A stretch of 64,000 bases of DNA from Mycolicibacterium sp. (GTDB taxonomy: Bacteria; Actinomycetota; Actinomycetes; Mycobacteriales; Mycobacteriaceae): contig JACJWN010000004.1 in the NCBI GenBank assembly GCA_020637165.1, positions 310,001 through 374,000 of the forward strand. The letters run 5' to 3'. The notes beneath the pieces were generated by a model. It was not told the DNA's origin. It saw only the letters and a program-made list of their open reading frames with translations, and did no database searches. The position numbers and the translations under genes are program-made. Position 1 is the first letter of the stretch. Each line of letters opens with the position of its first letter. Below are positions 10,971 through 58,123 of this stretch, in pieces.

Positions 10971-11723
10971 CTAAGGAACCCGGCCCTGCCCGCACCCGGC
11001 GGGCACCGTCGGCCCCTTGGCCAGTGCCTCCCCGAGCGACATCGGACCGTTGCCGGCGTTGAGGTCGACCACCGCCGGCAGGGACAGCCTCACCTCGTAG
11101 GCCACCGACCCCTGGCCGTCGGCGATGCGGCAGTCCAGACCGACCCGCCGCCCGGCGCCTCGACCGAATTCAGCGTCAAAAGCCTCCCGCAGCGACCTCG
11201 ACGACACTTGCGATGAGGCTTTGGTGAACACCGGGTCCAGAACCCGCACGGCCTGATCGGTCAGCGCCGCGGCGATACCGAAGTACTCCGGTGCCGCGAC
11301 CCCCGAACAGGTTCCGTGCGCGTACCACTCGTGCGAGGTCATCACCGCCGAGTCCGACATCAGTGACTTCAGGCTCTGCTGAAGGTCTCGGGGCAGGGGC
11401 ACCGGGTTACGTTTGCGGTCGGCGGCGCGTTTGGGCAGTTCGCAGTACTGCTGACTGGACGGTTGCGGCCACAGGCCGTGCAGGACGAAGGTCCGGCCCA
11501 TCTGCTCGACATGACCGGACCGGCACCCCGGGTTGGACCGCTCGACCTTGCACAAACTGGGACCCCACGTCACCACGAGCAGGCTGGAGGTGCTGTCGGA
11601 GGGCCCGGTCGGCGGCTCGGCGGGCTTGCGGTCCAGAACCAGCAGGCTGTAGGCCACGGCGATCACCACGGTGGCCGCCAGGACGGCGGAGATGGACAAT
11701 ACGGTCGCGTCGCCTCGCTTCAT
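10971..11723 (-). CDS. Membrane-anchored ribonuclease T2 family protein
   Basis: 250 aa. One N-terminal TM segment or uncleaved signal (residues 10-30), then an extracytoplasmic RNase T2 domain. CAS I is TFVLHGLWPQ (His82) and CAS II is HEWYAHGTC (His131, Glu132, His136); the usual Lys/Arg before the second CAS II His is Ala here. At least six cysteines could form disulfides. T2 enzymes cut single-stranded RNA through a 2',3'-cyclic phosphate. The ATG at 11723 is only 40 bp from the start of the divergent flippase-like/reverse transcriptase operon, so they share a control region. It ends 34 bp from the P450 start on the same strand. Confidence 0.9.
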   Translation of the reverse strand: MKRGDATVLSISAVLAATVVIAVAYSLLVLDRKPAEPPTGPSDSTSSLLVVTWGPSLCKVERSNPGCRSGHVEQMGRTFVLHGLWPQPSSQQYCELPKRAADRKRNPVPLPRDLQQSLKSLMSDSAVMTSHEWYAHGTCSGVAAPEYFGIAAALTDQAVRVLDPVFTKASSQVSSRSLREAFDAEFGRGAGRRVGLDCRIADGQGSVAYEVRLSLPAVVDLNAGNGPMSLGEALAKGPTVPAGCGQGRVP

Positions 11724-11763
11724 GGCGCAATCTATTCAACACCCCCATGGAGAAACCCGCCCC

Positions 11764-13821
11764 GTGAACGAGATCGACCGCTGGTTCGAGCGCACGGCGC
11801 GCGCCACCGGCCAACCGGTCTCGCTCTACCCGTGTCTTCTCACCGGCCGGATCCTCCCCTACTTCCGCTACCGGCTGCGCTACCCGTTCCTCATCGCCAC
11901 CGTCCGGTTCCTGGTACACGTCGCGGAGTTCTTCATCCTGCTCTCCAGCCTCGGCGGGGTCGCCGCCTTCACCGTCATGGTGTTGCGGGCCGGCAGCCTG
12001 ATCGTCTCCGGCGGCTGGTGGGGGCTCCTGGAGATCATGCGGGAACGGCTGCGGACCTTCGCCCGCGCCGGGGACCGCTCGGCCAGCGAAATGGAAATCG
12101 GTCGCTGGCTGGTGCTGTCGGTGTTCGTCGCGCTGATCGCGACGGTCGCGGGAGGGGCGGTGGTGATAGCGCTGAACGCTTCCGGCGGGGACCCGGTATC
12201 CCGCCTGTACGCATTCCTGGTTGTCCTGGAACTGGCCATCGACCTGCCGGTCCGAGTGCTGCACTCGGGCATCTACGCCACACGGCGGGTCTACAAACCG
12301 GTCTGGGCGATCTTCGTCCCGACCCTCGCCCAACTGGCGATCCTCGGCGTCGGTTTCTACCTTTACCCCACGGCCGCAATCATCACCGCGATCGTGGTCT
12401 CCAACGCCCTGAGTATCTGGATCACCGTCCACTTCTGTCTGGAGATCTACCGGCTGATGGGGCTGCGCCCGAGATACGGCAGCGACGATCACCGGTTCTG
12501 GCGCCACCTTCCGGAGATTCCGTTCTGGACCGGGTTCCAGGCGACACTGTCCGGGCTGAGCCTTCGCCTCGACGCCGTTCTCGTCCTGGCCCTCGTCGGC
12601 TTCTACGGCACCGACACCCGGACATTCGACCTCACCGCCGCCATGACGAGTTGGCAGCACATCGACGCCTTCGAGTTCTTCTACCTGGTCATGCCGCTGT
12701 TCCGGGGAACTTACGACAGTGCCGGAATCTTCTACTTCGACCTGGTGCGGCTTCGCCGCGCCCCGGGGATGCGCGAGTTGCAACTGCGGTTCTTCCGCAA
12801 GTTGCTCTGGGCGGCCCCGGTGATCGCGCTGTTCTTCTGGTCGCTGGCGGCCGGGCTGGGCACTTTGGTCCTGCACGACGTCCCGGTCAGCTTCGTGCTC
12901 GCGCTGCTTCCGCTGTTCCTGCTGCGCAGTTACATCGGCGCCTATCAGATCCGGTTGTTCGCCGAGGGCTTGTTCACCACCCATATCGCCACCCTGGTTT
13001 TGCTCGTTGTCCTGCTGGCCCTGGTGTGGATCAACCCCAACCCCGCGGGGGACTTGATCCAGATCACGGCGGCGATGACCGTGCAACTGATCGTGCTGAT
13101 CAATCTCCAGCATCTGCGCGATCGCAGGGCCCTGCCCCTGCCCACCCTGGTGCCGGTCCGCGATTGGATGACCTCGCTGGCGGCCGAACCCGGACCCGCG
13201 GTCGTTGGCACCGTTTCGATGCCGACGTCGATCCTGCCCAAGCAGAAGTCCGCCGTTGTGGCACTGGTGGACAACCACTTCGACGGTCGGGGCCACGTCG
13301 CGTTCCGTTCCCCGGAGACCCTCCTCTACTACCGCCGGTGTGGGGAAGAGGACGCACTGCCGCAGGACCATCTGGAATTGCAGGAACTCACCGGCTGCTG
13401 CGCGGGTCGAGGTAGGCCCGCGTCCTTCGCCGCGGCAGACGGACGCAGCGCCCTGGACCGCGCCGTCGCCGAGAGGCGGATCGTTCCGGCCGGTGCCGTC
13501 TCGGCGCAAAAGAGAACACTGGACACCCTGACCGACGAGTTCCGGACCACCTTCCCCGACGGCATCGTGTTCGACACCGAAACCCTTAGCGGCGCAGAGG
13601 ATATGCGCCGTCTTGATGCCGGAATACTGGCCCAGGCCCTGCCTGCCGCGCTGGCCAGCGCCGGCGAGGGCAGCGACTTGGTCCGGCTGGGCGAGCACTG
13701 GATGACCCCCGTGTACACCGGGGTGGCGCTGCGGCTGCTGTTCGTCCTGCCGCCGGGCGTGGCGCCGGGCTCTCTGCGGGAATGGCTCCGGGCCGTGAGA
13801 CTCTGGAAATTCAATGGGTGA
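11764..13821 (+). CDS. Multi-TM flippase-like membrane protein, partner of reverse transcriptase
   Basis: 685 aa from the GTG at 11764, which has a GGAGAAA site 8 nt upstream; an in-frame ATG at 11722 overlaps the RNase T2 start and is less likely. About eleven TM segments (near residues 42-60, 63-82, 114-138, 148-168, 180-201, 203-225, 268-285, 346-370, 374-392, 406-424, 432-448) have the spacing and polar/aromatic pattern of MATE/MVF-type lipid or polysaccharide flippases. The last 230 residues form a soluble, probably cytosolic domain I do not recognise (QKSAVVALVDNHFDGRGHV, then a Cys-Cys motif and an acidic/alpha-helical stretch). The stop overlaps the start of the reverse transcriptase gene by 8 bp. 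No transport substrate can be named; the flippase link is by pattern only. Confidence 0.7.
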   Translation: MNEIDRWFERTARATGQPVSLYPCLLTGRILPYFRYRLRYPFLIATVRFLVHVAEFFILLSSLGGVAAFTVMVLRAGSLIVSGGWWGLLEIMRERLRTFARAGDRSASEMEIGRWLVLSVFVALIATVAGGAVVIALNASGGDPVSRLYAFLVVLELAIDLPVRVLHSGIYATRRVYKPVWAIFVPTLAQLAILGVGFYLYPTAAIITAIVVSNALSIWITVHFCLEIYRLMGLRPRYGSDDHRFWRHLPEIPFWTGFQATLSGLSLRLDAVLVLALVGFYGTDTRTFDLTAAMTSWQHIDAFEFFYLVMPLFRGTYDSAGIFYFDLVRLRRAPGMRELQLRFFRKLLWAAPVIALFFWSLAAGLGTLVLHDVPVSFVLALLPLFLLRSYIGAYQIRLFAEGLFTTHIATLVLLVVLLALVWINPNPAGDLIQITAAMTVQLIVLINLQHLRDRRALPLPTLVPVRDWMTSLAAEPGPAVVGTVSMPTSILPKQKSAVVALVDNHFDGRGHVAFRSPETLLYYRRCGEEDALPQDHLELQELTGCCAGRGRPASFAAADGRSALDRAVAERRIVPAGAVSAQKRTLDTLTDEFRTTFPDGIVFDTETLSGAEDMRRLDAGILAQALPAALASAGEGSDLVRLGEHWMTPVYTGVALRLLFVLPPGVAPGSLREWLRAVRLWKFNG

Positions 13822-15142
13822 GCCGGTCGACGTCGAACGGCTGCTGGCCGATCCCAACACCTACGAAGACGCCATCCTGCGGATCTTCGAGAAACGCCGG
13901 CAACGCGGCATGGCCTATGCCGAGGCGGGCAATGGAGTCACCTTCTTCGACACCGCGACCAAGCGGCGATCACTGGCCCGAGCCATCGCCGACAGCATTG
14001 CCGCGGGGACCTACCGCCCCGAGCCGGTTGATCTGTGGATATTGGAGACCAAGGGCAAGAGCCGCGCCGCGCATATGCCCGCCTTCATCGATCACGTCGT
14101 GGGTTCGGCCCTCTACCAACTCCTTTCCCACAACGCGCGCTGCTACGGCCTGCCCGGGGTCTACTCCTATCTGCCCGGCGTGACGAATGTGACGGCCATG
14201 CGGGCGCTGGCTGATTTCGTCCGCGCCCATCGCAAGCGGGTGGGGCCGGAAGGCCCGCCGCTGTATGTTCTTCAGTCCGACTTCGAGAAGTACGGCGACA
14301 CCCTTCCGGTGGGACCCGACGCCCCGTTGTGGCCCATCCTGCGGGCGGTGGCCTCGCTGGGAAGCTTGGGCGGCGTATCCGAACGGACCTGGAATCTCAT
14401 CACCGGTCTTGCCCGACCGGTCGTCCGGGATCAGGATGGAACACCCTTCACCAGGCTGCACGGGGTGGCCATGGGCACCCCGATCGTTCCGATGCTGGCC
14501 AATCTCGCTGTGGTGCCGATGGATCGGGCGATTCTCGACGTCGAGGGGATCTTCTACGCCCGCTATAACGACGACTTCCTCATCGCCCATCCCGATCTTG
14601 CCGCGATCCATGAGCTCGACACGCGGATCGACACACTCCTCGAGGGCCTCGGTGTGCGACGCAAGCTGGCCAAGGAGGTGCGCACCGCGCTGAGCGGCAA
14701 CGGAATGCCCTCGAAACAGGATCCCGGCTACCTCGGCGGCAACCGGATCGACTGCCTGGGTCTGTCGGTGTTCCACGCCGGCACGATGGCGGTCGGTCCG
14801 CATCATCTGCGCCGGTTGGTCGCGCGGGTTGTGGACCGGATCGACGCCACCGTCCCCGCACTGGCCCCGCTTGCACCGGCCGAACGGCTTCGCCACCTCG
14901 TTGCCGCCACCAACGTCATGCTGGATGTGACGAACCCCTTTGCGGTTCAGGGCTTGTCCGCGGTGCTGGAGAACACGACCGATCGCGGCGTGCTGAAGGA
15001 TCTGGACTTCCGGATCGCCCGCAAACTGGCGCAAGTCGCCACCGGACTTCCCGGTGCGCGCGGTTTCCGGCAGGTGCCGCCGCGGGTGCTCCGCGGCGAG
15101 TTCGGACTGACGTCGTTGGTGCACCTGCGCAACTTGCGCTGA
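13814..15142 (+). CDS. Stand-alone reverse transcriptase (RNA-directed DNA polymerase)
   Basis: 442 aa. RT motifs appear in order: RT1/RT2 region KGKSRAAHMPAFIDHVV and the SYLPGVTNVTAM equivalent of the RPGRS element (80-130); motif A VLQSDFEKYGDTLP (Asp156); motif B HGVAMGTPIVPMLANLAV (216-233); motif C FYARYNDDFLI (Tyr251-Asn-Asp253-Asp254); motif D GVRRKLAKEV; motif E YLGGNRIDCLG (306-316). All three catalytic aspartates are kept, so it is probably active. No maturase X, HNH or Cas1 domain is present; the last 120 residues look alpha-helical. No group II intron RNA or diversity-generating VR/TR repeat is visible. It is translationally coupled (ATGGGTGA overlap) to the flippase-like gene. 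Closest description is an unclassified UG/Abi-like RT, a set rich in phage-defence enzymes, but the class is not established here. Confidence 0.85.
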   Translation: MGEPVDVERLLADPNTYEDAILRIFEKRRQRGMAYAEAGNGVTFFDTATKRRSLARAIADSIAAGTYRPEPVDLWILETKGKSRAAHMPAFIDHVVGSALYQLLSHNARCYGLPGVYSYLPGVTNVTAMRALADFVRAHRKRVGPEGPPLYVLQSDFEKYGDTLPVGPDAPLWPILRAVASLGSLGGVSERTWNLITGLARPVVRDQDGTPFTRLHGVAMGTPIVPMLANLAVVPMDRAILDVEGIFYARYNDDFLIAHPDLAAIHELDTRIDTLLEGLGVRRKLAKEVRTALSGNGMPSKQDPGYLGGNRIDCLGLSVFHAGTMAVGPHHLRRLVARVVDRIDATVPALAPLAPAERLRHLVAATNVMLDVTNPFAVQGLSAVLENTTDRGVLKDLDFRIARKLAQVATGLPGARGFRQVPPRVLRGEFGLTSLVHLRNLR

Positions 15143-15303
15143 CGCGGCGCGGCGCGATTGAATGCCGCTGAGGGCGCGGACCCCGCTTCCGGGCGGAATT
15201 CCCCGAGGGACCACAGAGGCTGCGGCTTTCGGTCGCTCATTTTTCGGTTTTTCCCCGCGCCCTCGCGCGCCTCGGACCGTCCCTCAGGCCCTCCGGCCGA
15301 CCC
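15143..15303. other. Intergenic region after the RT operon
   Basis: 161 bp between the RT stop and the tgt stop (convergent). It contains T-rich tracts (ATTTTTCGGTTTTTCC at about 15239-15255) and GC-rich partial inverted repeats that could end transcription or hold a short RNA. RT systems often need a linked ncRNA, so this is the first place to look, but no clear structured RNA is evident by eye. Confidence 0.35.
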
Positions 15304-28609: not shown

Positions 28610-28700
28610 TGGCGGTGGCGGAGGGATTTGAACCCTCGGACGGGGGTTACCCGTCACACGCTTTCGAGGCGTGCTCCTTAGGCCGCTCGGACACGCCACC
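28610..28700 (-). tRNA. tRNA-Ser (anticodon CGA)
   Basis: Class II tRNA. Acceptor GGTGGCG (from 28700) pairs with CGCCACC; discriminator G, and a CCA end is encoded at 28612-28610. Anticodon loop CTCGAAA, long variable arm ACGGGTAACCCCCGT-like, T-loop GTTCAAATC. Reads UCG serine codons. Confidence 0.95.
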
Positions 28701-55252: not shown

Positions 55253-58123
55253 ATGAGCGGCAACTCGGCGAAAGCGTGGGCGGCGGCCGCCGCGCTGGGG
55301 CTTTCCCTGGCCGGCCCACAGGCATTCGGCACCGCCACCGCGGACAGCGGCGACCAGCAGAAGGTGCGGACAAGTCAGAACCCCGGTCCGCAGCGGACCC
55401 AGGCGACCCGCCCGAACCGGAACCCGGGAGCCGTCCGGACGCCTCGGACGCCCGCGCTCCAGTCCCCAACCGGCCGGTCGAGCAGACCATCGCCGACACG
55501 GTCGGTTCCGGCTACCGCCGCTTCCGCCGAGGCGCGCGAGGTCGCCGTTCCCGTGGCGGCTTTCGCGGTCACCACGCCCCGGTCCGATGCGACCCCGGCA
55601 CCGCCGGCAGCACAGGCAACCCCGGAGGTGCCGGAGCCGAGCATCACGATGGCGGAGACCGTCGCGGCCACGGCCTTCACCCGTGCCCACCGGACCGGCG
55701 AAGCGCCCGCTCCGGGAGCCGAGATCGTCGCCGGTGCGATGCTGCTGACCCGGCGCACGCTGACCGCGGCGCCGGTAGCCGACTCCGTTACCCAGATTTC
55801 CGGCAACCCGATCGCCGATTTCCTCACCGACGTCCGGGTGTGGGTGGAGACCTACGCCAACCTCTACCCCTGGTGGAGCGGCAGCCTGCTGCCCGAACCG
55901 CTCAGACAATTCTTCTTCAGCGCCACCCCGGTCGCCGACCCCATGCAGGTAGAACTCGACCTCGCCGCGGGCGTCACCAGCCGGGCCATCCCGTTCAGCG
56001 CCACGGACGCCGACGGCCATCGGCTGGTTTTCTCAGTGCCCGATCAGGGCCAGCCCGGCGGACCCAACCACGGCACGGTGAGCGTCGACAACGCCGCGGG
56101 CACCTTCACCTACACCCCGGACGGGGACTTCACCGGCACCGACACCTTCTCCTTCGTCGCCAGCGACGACACCTCGCTGCACTTCCACGCCTGGGCCGGT
56201 CTGCTCAACGCCGCGTTCGGCGTGCTCGGCACCGGACTGGCCGGCGGGCACCGAACCACCGCGACGGTGACAATCTTCAATAACGTCGACATCCGACCGG
56301 ACCCTGCACTGGCGGTTTACACCGATATCGTCGGAGACTTCTCGGTGCTCACCTACAACGTCTCCGGTCTACCCTTCCCGTTCTCCGGCGCAGCGCTGCC
56401 GAGGATTACCAACACCCTCGAAATCGGTTCGCGGCTAGAGGGTTTCGACGTCGTCAACGTCCAGGAGGACATTGCCTACCATCAGTTCCTGATCGCCGGC
56501 ACGGACTTCCCGGATCGGACGGCCCCGTCGGTGCCCACCTGGGCGTGGCCGGTCGGCGTTCCGTTCTCCGACGGCCTGAACTCTATGTCGTCGTACTACC
56601 TGGAAAGCCTGCAGCGCCAGGCCTGGTCCACTCGCGCAGACCTGCTCAACCCGGGCGGATTCACCTACACCCGCCAGCACATCCCGGGAGGCTCCTCAGT
56701 CGACGTCTACAACGTCGACACCAGCGGCGGCGCCATGACGAATGACGAGATCGCCCAGTTGTCAGCGTTCATCGGCGCGAACTCGATCGGCCGGGCAGTG
56801 ATCGTCACCGGCGACTTCGGCCAGTACTACTCCGACCCGGGGCAGACGCTGAGCGCCTTCGCCGCCGCCAACGGCCTCACCGACGCCTGGGTGCAGGTCG
56901 AGTTCGGCGGGCTCACCCCCACCGACGCCCAGCGCTGCGCCTACGCCGACAGCTGCGAGCAGCCGGACAAGATCTTCTTCCGCGACGCAGCCCCGCTGGA
57001 CCCGCTAGCCCCGGCCAGCAGCCCGGTGCGGCTGCTGGCGCTGGACTACACCAACGAAGGCCTGAACTTCCTCGACGATGCCGGCCGGGACCTCTCCGCC
57101 AACCGGCCCCAGTCGGTGAACTTCAGCTACACGGTCGACGCGGTCGGCCCCATGAACGTCGAACTGTCCGACTGGATGGCCAACCTACCCGCGCTGTCGA
57201 CGCTGCCGCTGACCCAGATTCCCATCCCCGGCACCCATGACTCGGGCAGCTACGGCATAACGCCGCAGTCTCCGTGGGCGCTGACCGGGAAGGACCAGTT
57301 CGGCATCCTCACCGAACTGCCCGCGGTCCTGCAGGACCTCGTCGTCAAGCCGATCGCCGCCGGCTACGGCAAGACCCAGTCCAAGGACCTCTACGAGCAG
57401 TTCAGCGACGGCATCCGCTACGTGGACCTGCGGCTGACCAACGAACCCGACGGGCAGGTCTACCTCGAACACGGGCTGCGCTCAGTGCCCTTCACCGACG
57501 TGGTCGACGACATCGGGGCCTTCGCCAACGAGCATCCCCGCGAAGTGCTGGTCGTCTACGTCCAGGGAATCAAGAACTTCACCGCCGACACCCACGCCGC
57601 GGTTATCGCACAGATGGACGCCGCGTTCGGGGCGCGTATGGCGCCGCGGGCGCTGGGCACTTCGGCCACGCTGCAGGATCTGTGGGCGGCCGACCGCAAC
57701 GTCATCGTCGTCTACAACAACTCCGAGGTCGTCGCCGCCGACCCGGTGTTGTGGCCGGACGACACCCTCTACCGCCCGTGGCCTCAGGTCGCGTCGGTGC
57801 CGGATCTGCTGGCGGGTAACGAGACAAACCTGGCCAACCGGCCGCCCGCAGCGATCTGGGGCATGTTCGGTGAGTCCACCCCCGGCCCGCTCAACTACGT
57901 CACCGGCGTCCTGACACTGAGCACCCGCAACATCGAGCAGTTCATGTTCAACGTGCACCCTCCGGTGCAGCGGTGGATGCGAGTGAACTTCAAGGAGTCG
58001 CTGAACCTGGTGACGGCCGACTGGTATCAGGAATTCTGGCCCGCCGGTTCGACTCTGGCGCGCGACAATATCGGAGCCGTATACGAGACGCTGGGTCTGA
58101 GGGATTCGGCAGTGGTGCTGTAG
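55253..58123 (+). CDS. Exported PI-PLC-like phospholipase fused to a degenerate EEP domain
   Basis: 956 aa from the ATG at 55253. Signal peptide (1-32), Pro/Arg/Ala-rich linker (35-150), hydrophobic module EIVAGAMLLTRRTL and NPIADFLTDV, then a VCBS/cadherin-like repeat (NAAGTFTYTPDGDFTGTDTFSF, about 275-310). Residues about 360-620 resemble an endonuclease/exonuclease/phosphatase (sphingomyelinase-like) domain with YNVSGLP and NVQED (Glu about 405), but GDFN is GDFG and the SDHxP catalytic end reads SANRP. Residues 640-956 are a PI-PLC X domain with IPGTHDSGSY (His662), YVDLRL and LEHGL (His740), apparently intact. No Shine-Dalgarno is seen; the IS lies 8 bp upstream (after the duplication) and replaces the native upstream DNA. 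Confidence 0.8.
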   Translation: MSGNSAKAWAAAAALGLSLAGPQAFGTATADSGDQQKVRTSQNPGPQRTQATRPNRNPGAVRTPRTPALQSPTGRSSRPSPTRSVPATAASAEAREVAVPVAAFAVTTPRSDATPAPPAAQATPEVPEPSITMAETVAATAFTRAHRTGEAPAPGAEIVAGAMLLTRRTLTAAPVADSVTQISGNPIADFLTDVRVWVETYANLYPWWSGSLLPEPLRQFFFSATPVADPMQVELDLAAGVTSRAIPFSATDADGHRLVFSVPDQGQPGGPNHGTVSVDNAAGTFTYTPDGDFTGTDTFSFVASDDTSLHFHAWAGLLNAAFGVLGTGLAGGHRTTATVTIFNNVDIRPDPALAVYTDIVGDFSVLTYNVSGLPFPFSGAALPRITNTLEIGSRLEGFDVVNVQEDIAYHQFLIAGTDFPDRTAPSVPTWAWPVGVPFSDGLNSMSSYYLESLQRQAWSTRADLLNPGGFTYTRQHIPGGSSVDVYNVDTSGGAMTNDEIAQLSAFIGANSIGRAVIVTGDFGQYYSDPGQTLSAFAAANGLTDAWVQVEFGGLTPTDAQRCAYADSCEQPDKIFFRDAAPLDPLAPASSPVRLLALDYTNEGLNFLDDAGRDLSANRPQSVNFSYTVDAVGPMNVELSDWMANLPALSTLPLTQIPIPGTHDSGSYGITPQSPWALTGKDQFGILTELPAVLQDLVVKPIAAGYGKTQSKDLYEQFSDGIRYVDLRLTNEPDGQVYLEHGLRSVPFTDVVDDIGAFANEHPREVLVVYVQGIKNFTADTHAAVIAQMDAAFGARMAPRALGTSATLQDLWAADRNVIVVYNNSEVVAADPVLWPDDTLYRPWPQVASVPDLLAGNETNLANRPPAAIWGMFGESTPGPLNYVTGVLTLSTRNIEQFMFNVHPPVQRWMRVNFKESLNLVTADWYQEFWPAGSTLARDNIGAVYETLGLRDSAVVL

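Follow-up and report, generated by a model that had tools for sequence, protein, structure and literature searches.

Among the closest described systems to the locus reported here are two defence-associated reverse transcriptase (DRT) systems, cited here and below from the accessible parts of the respective papers. DRT10 is tripartite, combining a non-coding RNA (ncRNA), a SLATT membrane protein and a reverse transcriptase (RT) whose product is proposed to control the membrane effector (PMC12632851, preprint). In DRT9 the RT copies a poly-U tract in its ncRNA (PMC12483538), an RNA that its authors sought in the 300 bp upstream of the RT (PMC12489045). The DRT products described are DNA (PMC12483538, PMC12632851). 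We analysed a stretch of 64,000 nucleotides of Mycolicibacterium sp. DNA, hereafter called the window (assembly GCA_020637165.1, contig JACJWN010000004.1, positions 310,001 to 374,000 of the forward strand), for which a preliminary description had reported a two-gene system of a stand-alone RT and a flippase-like membrane protein.

The system has four parts rather than two: an exported RNase T2, a membrane protein of MOP-superfamily fold (the fold being predicted), a polymerase with the fold of an RT and a small RNA of its own, all within one cassette. The RNase T2 gene and the structured RNA lie on either side of the two genes originally described and had been missed. This combination, in which an RT is joined by its own structured RNA, an exported RNase and a membrane protein resembling transporters, looks new: no RT plus flippase or RT plus RNase T2 system was found among the matches listed in a literature search, subscription papers and supplements lying outside that search, and the accessible parts of PMC4244168 and PMC8934634 make no mention of mycobacteria. 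The features of the cassette, in positions of the window, are as follows.

10971..11723, minus strand: membrane-anchored exported RNase T2, 250 aa, divergent from the membrane-protein gene (PF00445, 58.4 bits)
11724..11763: intergenic stretch of 40 bp between the divergent genes, presumed shared promoter region
11764..13821, plus strand: membrane protein, 685 aa, GTG start, with a predicted MOP-like transmembrane part (about residues 1-455) and cytosolic alpha/beta domain (about residues 465-685)
13814..13821, plus strand: 8-bp overlap of the membrane-protein stop with the RT start, read directly from the sequence
13814..15142, plus strand: RT-fold polymerase, 442 aa, ATG start, with D156..G161 (motif A), M220-G221-T222 (motif B) and Y251-N-D-D254 (motif C), motif names that we presume to apply to these positions
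15134..15139 (TTGCGC) and 15158..15163 (TTGAAT), plus strand: promoter-like pair directly upstream of the RNA
15166..15267, plus strand: structured RNA of about 100 nt with predicted boundaries, behind the RT gene, from a covariance model and an alignment of 42 sequences

Comparison with described systems

The cassette resembles DRT10 (UG17) in that a stand-alone RT is accompanied by its own structured ncRNA and by a membrane protein, which in DRT10 is co-evolving (PMC12632851, preprint), and it reproduces the DRT10 layout in that RT, structured RNA and membrane protein occupy one locus. The components themselves are nevertheless different. The UG17 model of PADLOC gives the RT no more than 27.8 bits; where DRT10 has a SLATT protein, the membrane protein here is MOP-like by predicted fold and matches nothing in Pfam or PADLOC; the RNA lies behind the RT, whereas the DRT10 ncRNA lies upstream of the membrane gene; and the cassette has an additional RNase T2 and a glycine at the steric-gate position of its polymerase.

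With DRT9, which we take to be UG28 and which makes poly-dA on a poly-U template, the cassette shares a U-rich RNA tract, while the DRT9 model gives the second-best PADLOC score and the DRT9 structure is a close fold match. Here too the differences are considerable: the score is far from family level, the RNA again lies behind the RT, two extra proteins are present and the RT has 442 aa against 499 residues in the DRT9 chain.

A polymerase outside the modelled RT families

The two open reading frames (ORFs) and their 8-bp overlap are as first described, and D156 and Y251-N252-D253-D254 of the RT are identical in all 42 loci (41 related loci plus the window), as are K82, R84, G161 and R250. That the enzyme is a genuine RT relative is borne out by sequence and by modelling. 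The match to RVT_1 (E 7.7e-05) lies below the Pfam cut-off; RT models of PADLOC match with E values down to 1.5e-16. The AlphaFold2 (AF2) model has a predicted local distance difference test (pLDDT) value of 87.7 and a predicted template-modelling score (pTM) of 0.80, and a Foldseek search with it returns the GsI-IIC group II RT (6ar1) first, at E 3.6e-14, with DRT9 as the second kind of structure, at rank 4 (1.3e-13), G2L4 among the leaders and the RT of a diversity-generating retroelement (DGR) at rank 16. The predicted structure thus shows a real polymerase fold.

No PADLOC or NCBIfam model of an RT family accommodates the enzyme, be it of intron, retron, CRISPR or UG/DRT type, in keeping with the original remark that intron and retron hallmarks are absent. 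Its best PADLOC scores are 58.6 bits, with a CRISPR RT model, and 55 bits, with Drt9, the best of the UG/DRT models. Ten control RTs, by comparison, score 279-725 bits with their best PADLOC models: five UG/DRT/Abi RTs reach 368-662 bits with their own models, three CRISPR-type RTs 279-321 bits and two retron RTs 313 and 725 bits. Family level is therefore reached neither with any UG/DRT/Abi model of PADLOC nor with the CRISPR RT model. For the retron RTs, the NCBIfam St85 model gives 27.5 bits against a cut-off of 235 and the best listed PADLOC retron model 21.3 bits; the NCBIfam models of Drt2 and Drt3a also leave the protein far under their cut-offs. Group II intron, G2L and CRISPR-associated RTs together provide both the best fold match and the best PADLOC score, yet the group II maturase model TIGR04416 of NCBIfam yields 50.2 bits against a cut-off of 300, Rfam finds no intron RNA family at the locus and the cassette RTs form a long branch of their own. 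Pfam detects no Cas1 domain in the RT. Nor is there a Cas family among the 25 listed of the 88 PADLOC families matched in 96 flanking genes from 18 loci (96 of 127 flanking ORFs were scanned, exclusions being 24 ORFs shorter than 200 aa, six ORFs of locus L004 and one long ORF of L037).

In a tree of 21 rows the cassette RTs cluster together on a long branch of their own (support 100/100); neither the retron group (100/99) nor the group II/CRISPR group, itself with a support of only 86/96, includes them. With scores far beneath family level and a separate branch, identity as a group II intron, CRISPR or retron RT was rejected. The tree leaves the neighbours of this branch unplaced, and the long branches make its own position unsure. 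The 17 reference RTs used for the tree, and for the comparison of motifs below, comprise 14 of 18 extracted ORFs and three sequences from named records; the excluded ORFs (L072, L074, L079 and L086) contained no recognisable YxDD or FxDD.

A distinctive position of the polymerase is the fifth after the motif-A Asp, occupied by glycine (G161) in 42 of 42 cassette loci as against Phe or Tyr in 17 of 17 reference RTs. The residue missing here is the one that ordinarily confines enzymes of this kind to DNA synthesis. The preceding residue, Y160, is Phe in three of the 42 loci. In motif B the cassette RT has M220, where 13 of the 17 reference RTs have Gln and none has Met. The equivalent spacing is found in telomerase, whose steric gate Y256 lies five residues after the catalytic D251, and the Y256A substitution reduces dGTP/rGTP selectivity from 14,000-fold to less than 2 (PMC7274783). 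Natural ribonucleotide incorporation is described for mycobacterial DinB2, a member of another polymerase family with a leucine gate (PMC4176160). Judged from its sequence, then, the cassette polymerase may accept ribonucleotides (rNTPs), and its product could contain ribonucleotides or be all RNA, because the residue at the steric gate is glycine.

A conserved structured RNA behind the polymerase gene

In each of the 42 loci a strongly conserved element lies downstream of the RT stop, on the same strand as the RT. Its consensus comprises a closing helix (P1), a small hairpin (P2), a bipartite hairpin (P3) and a U-rich linker. The P3 region, ACAGAGGYUGNGGCUUUC, is near-invariant and, in the alignment of 42, is kept from mycobacteria to rhizobia. 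The window RNA scores 102.8 bits with covariance model R1, of whose 42 source sequences it is one; no Rfam family matches it above the gathering score. In the paired columns 97.4% of cells can pair, and two-sided changes occur in nine of the 22 pairs, compared with a mean of 4.3 in shuffled alignments (none of 500 as high). Related sequences can exceed shuffles of this kind, and the firmer control is that in which partners are slid by 1-3 columns, which leaves only 1-3 pairs with two-sided changes. G-U pairs (for example 26 C-G and 15 U-G at one pair) favour the plus strand as the RNA strand.

Upstream of the RNA core, at a distance of 77-83 nt, a TTGC box is present in 38 of the 42 loci; it occurs at any place within the 50 nt scanned in 40 of 42, whereas nucleotide shuffles give a mean of 9.2 and a maximum of 18. 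In 14 of the 38 loci (16 of the 40) the box lies past the RT stop, so its conservation appears to extend beyond codons to the DNA itself. A promoter-like pattern, TTG-N19..21-TNNANT, is found in 19 of 42 loci. From these patterns, the box and the second part are a putative promoter of a separate RNA. In 41 of the 42 loci the linker includes a run of four or more U; in one the longest run is two.

One might ask whether this element is simply a 3' untranslated region (3'-UTR), a terminator or an operon regulator with no polymerase partner. Its place immediately after the RT gene, in the same orientation, and a U-rich stretch that could resemble a terminator are in keeping with that view. The U-run, however, is internal, with P1 closing after it; the P3 region is common to mycobacteria and rhizobia; and the upstream box is fixed in position, outside the RT gene in 14 loci. 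We therefore regard this explanation as quite improbable. By coordinates, 35 of 36 RNA matches lie directly behind an RT. The other, a weak extra copy (44 bits; L063:5116-5217, corresponding to G018:C46:21115-21216), is accompanied by no RNase T2, membrane-protein or RT match within the 10 kb analysed and looks like a remnant of another cassette.

The membrane protein and the RNase T2

The membrane protein has eleven hydrophobic peaks and a C-terminal soluble region of 239 residues, in agreement with the eleven transmembrane helices and large cytosolic domain originally proposed. Its AF2 model (pLDDT 79.5, pTM 0.80) agrees in outline with the hydrophobicity profile, with helices to about residue 455 followed by an alpha/beta domain of about 220 aa. 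In Foldseek the model matches MATE (6hfb, E 6.4e-6) and WzxE (1.4e-4). Judging by their titles, 49 of the 50 listed matches are MATE, Wzx, MurJ or other MOP-superfamily structures, the title of the remaining one (5c6n) being uninformative; TM scores normalised by target range from 0.38 to 0.63 among these 50. The protein is accordingly predicted to have a MATE/Wzx/MurJ fold, and the initial guess of a flippase was right at this level, 49 of the 50 listed fold matches being of MOP type.

Sequence profiles show no such link. The window protein has no match in Pfam, PADLOC, NCBIfam, PHROGs or the PDB sequences, and a Pfam scan of 38 members of its family gave a best match of E 0.0052, in one member. 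With hhalign the probability of a link is 0.5% to MurJ and 0.2% to Wzx, against 0.1% in a column-shuffled control, while the same method links MurJ with Wzx at 97.4%. Membership of the MurJ or Wzx families by sequence profile was thus rejected and only the superfamily accepted, by predicted fold; the extra cytosolic domain is a further difference from MATE, WzxE and MurJ.

GTG 11764 is the most likely start, because homologues in many loci align from about residues 27-32 of the longer ORF. The 8-bp overlap with the RT gene recurs in L015, L023 and the three Rhizobiaceae loci (L033-L035), an arrangement that suggests translational coupling of the two proteins.

The RNase T2 gene, divergent from the membrane gene, first surfaced when neighbours at different chromosomal sites were clustered. 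Its domain exceeds the PF00445 cut-off of 26 bits, and PDB relatives include RNase MC1 and NGR3. As in the family generally, a His/Glu/His set is conserved: H82, E132 and H136, which we take to be the catalytic residues, are identical together with six Cys in all 39 loci carrying the gene (window included). By tblastn the gene is present in 38 of the 41 related loci; contig ends truncate the remaining ones, L015, L023 and L029. Also conserved is an N-terminal anchor, with R3 and V8 in 39 of 39 cassette loci, that includes an RGDxxVLSISA-like motif (about 11634-11723 of the window, minus strand), modified in rhizobia. This fixed motif sets the cassette-linked enzymes apart from RNases T2 that occur alone: by eye, it is lacking in six of eight such orphans, L055 keeps part of it and the sequence viewed for L056 did not include the N-terminus. 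Retention of the anchor in cassettes and its absence in six of the eight orphans suggest contact with a partner. Given the anchor and the six conserved Cys, the enzyme presumably works outside the cell.

The gap between the RNase T2 and membrane genes is 19-228 bp in 38 of 39 loci measured and, by the same measure, 671 bp in L042. The idea of an RNA at this place was dropped, as only 40 bp separate the genes in the window and the distance differs among other loci.

Distribution and genomic context

The 41 related loci found by contig scan comprise 38 in mycobacteria or actinobacterial-labelled bins and three in Rhizobiaceae, where RT identity is 52-54% and the full set recurs in all three. One bin of the actinobacterial set is labelled Bifidobacterium breve, presumably because of a mis-binned contig. 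Carriers include Mycolicibacterium rhodesiae JS60 and Flavimaribacter sediminis WL0058. The membrane gene directly precedes the RT in 40 of 41 loci; the exception, L029, starts partway through the RT gene.

Among 297 genomes of the genus (that of the window included) the RT is present in 35, and the membrane protein in the same 35, so that the tight coupling of the two proposed at the outset is supported; in the genomes examined neither gene was independent of the other, and the RT fell firmly into no group II or DGR family. The structured RNA occurs in 34 of the 297 genomes, all among the 35 RT carriers. RNase T2 occurs in 42, of which 34 are among the RT carriers and eight have RNase T2 only. 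The exception among the carriers, G153 (L061), holds a decayed cassette in which the RT is reduced to residues 3-231 and RNase T2 is in two pieces, with the membrane protein nearly full-length. Co-occurrence is therefore one-sided: the RT was never seen without RNase T2 or its remnant, and RNase T2 was seen without the RT. The 41 related loci and the 35 carrier genomes overlap and are not independent samples. In the mycobacterial set, Spearman correlations of distances are 0.66 (RT and membrane protein), 0.51 (RT and RNase) and 0.71 (membrane protein and RNase), values in which shared ancestry is uncontrolled. One genome has two cassettes about 63 kb apart (G207:C1:995098-1062669), and one of their membrane genes contains an internal TGA.

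Wider samples yielded no additional members, the cassette occurring in one of 346 genomes of the phylum (the window's own) and in one of 297 of the rhizobial order (the seed). Sorted by site, the 42 loci form 11 groups when a single shared neighbour is enough to join two of them and 21 when two are required, and, apart from the three cassette genes, each neighbour cluster is found in at most 13 of the 42 loci, most neighbours being unannotated. Neighbours at the window's own site, beside tgt, were dropped as cassette members, their commonest cluster occurring in 13 of 42 loci. The many chromosomal contexts and patchy occurrence fit an accessory system. The long residence suggested in the preliminary description is not borne out by carriage in 35 of 297 genomes, many sites and one decayed copy. 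In three genomes (L054, L056 and L057, from G106, G194 and G209) RNase T2 lies between tgt and a P450 gene, the chromosomal site of the window, with no membrane protein, RT or RNA match there; this state may reflect loss of the module or its later insertion. In one rhizobial locus (L033:9476-12153) genes for an adenine deaminase and a nucleoside hydrolase adjoin the cassette, and the same clusters appear in L034 and L035.

Elsewhere in the window, ARAGORN called two tRNA-Ser(CGA) genes (28610-28700 and 55402-55480), both below the Rfam tRNA gathering score and possibly false.

Possible roles

We favour, at a probability of roughly 0.45, an accessory anti-phage or abortive-infection cassette in which an RNA-templated polymerase signals to an effector in the membrane, much as has been suggested for DRT10. 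The polymerase would bind the small RNA transcribed from the promoter-like sequence behind its own gene and copy a short, probably single-stranded template within it, the U-rich linker being the best candidate by analogy with DRT9. The product, which in view of the glycine gate may contain or consist of ribonucleotides, or the ribonucleoprotein (RNP) itself, would reach the co-translated membrane protein through its cytosolic domain and so switch its transport or permeability. Meanwhile the anchored RNase T2 might attack RNA on the outside of the membrane or, should the membrane have opened, RNA in the cytosol. That the closest solved RT structures include the ncRNA-templated DRT9 counts in favour of this scheme. 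Defence is the leading role, held with modest confidence: the phage defence raised at the outset stays plausible by analogy with described systems, and the listed PADLOC families of the flanking genes lend it no defence-island signal.

Several observations weigh against this scheme. No defence island was seen among the 25 listed PADLOC families, which are UvrD-type helicase models (GajB, RTasHel) matched in two genes each and read as generic. No cassette member was found on plasmids or phages, where weak matches in six of 72,556 plasmid and one of 50,697 phage records have 25-28% identity over at most 57% of the sequence, the annotated ones being group II RT, cas1 or RNA-directed DNA polymerase; in IMG/VR, a remote relative (23% identity) appeared in one of ten pattern-matched stretches. 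An origin as phage or plasmid cargo was rejected on the same weak, partial or remote matches. RNase T2 can evidently work without the other parts, being alone in eight of the 297 genomes. The TTGC box is absent in L023 and L032, and the linker of L012 contains no U-run longer than two by alignment. Finally, the rhizobial adenine deaminase and nucleoside hydrolase neighbours fit RNA or purine scavenging.

The nature of the product can be viewed in two ways. The enzyme could be an ordinary DNA-making RT in which another residue took over sugar selection, yielding cDNA as in DRT2, DRT9 and DRT10, a serious contender that falls somewhat short of an even chance and is compatible with the signalling role favoured above. 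Described DRT products are DNA (PMC12483538, PMC12632851), the fold is close to those of the group II and DRT9 RTs, and Y160 and M220, near the pocket, might supply the gate. On the other side stand the invariant glycine where every reference RT is aromatic and the telomerase Y256A precedent (PMC7274783). Conversely, the RT-fold enzyme might be a natural RNA-templated RNA polymerase that, having lost the aromatic steric gate, copies its own small RNA into RNA, which would serve as substrate or signal for a membrane machine of MOP protein and external RNase T2; we consider this rather doubtful. The predicted MATE/Wzx/MurJ fold would also suit nucleic-acid export or an envelope function, whereby the polymerase makes a polymer, the MOP protein carries it or a lipid-linked form across the membrane, in the manner of Wzx and MurJ with lipid-linked sugars, and on the outside RNase T2 trims or recycles RNA. 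The anchor and six Cys, presumably external, agree with this idea, and an RNA-making polymerase, as G161 hints, would suit an RNase partner. It is nonetheless unlikely, for the mostly unannotated neighbours, none of whose clusters exceeds 13 of the 42 loci, show no ligase or glycosyltransferase as a constant partner, a MurJ/Wzx profile match is lacking and occurrence is patchy. Scavenging of RNA or purines, with RNase T2 digesting external RNA, the MOP protein importing or exporting the products and the polymerase-RNA pair regulating or consuming them, would account for the rhizobial neighbours and for the eight genomes with RNase T2 alone. Both neighbour clusters are, however, limited to three rhizobial loci, and such a task would not seem to call for a polymerase or a template-like RNA, making this very unlikely.

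Implications

The cassette defines a whole RT family that has glycine at the position of the aromatic gate and whose gene is linked to those of an exported RNase and a MOP-type protein and to a small RNA. The bacterial RT systems described so far and considered here make DNA (PMC12483538, PMC12632851), and the family raises the question of whether an RT relative has turned into an RNA-making enzyme in nature. It also bears on the way in which membrane proteins mediate the effects of nucleic acids made by RTs, a question left open by the DRT10 authors in the accessible part of their preprint (PMC12632851). The cassette is small, the boundaries of its RNA are predicted and named strains carry it, so these questions are directly testable. 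Should the enzyme prove to make RNA, the cassette would be a cellular system linking RNA synthesis, membrane transport and RNA destruction.

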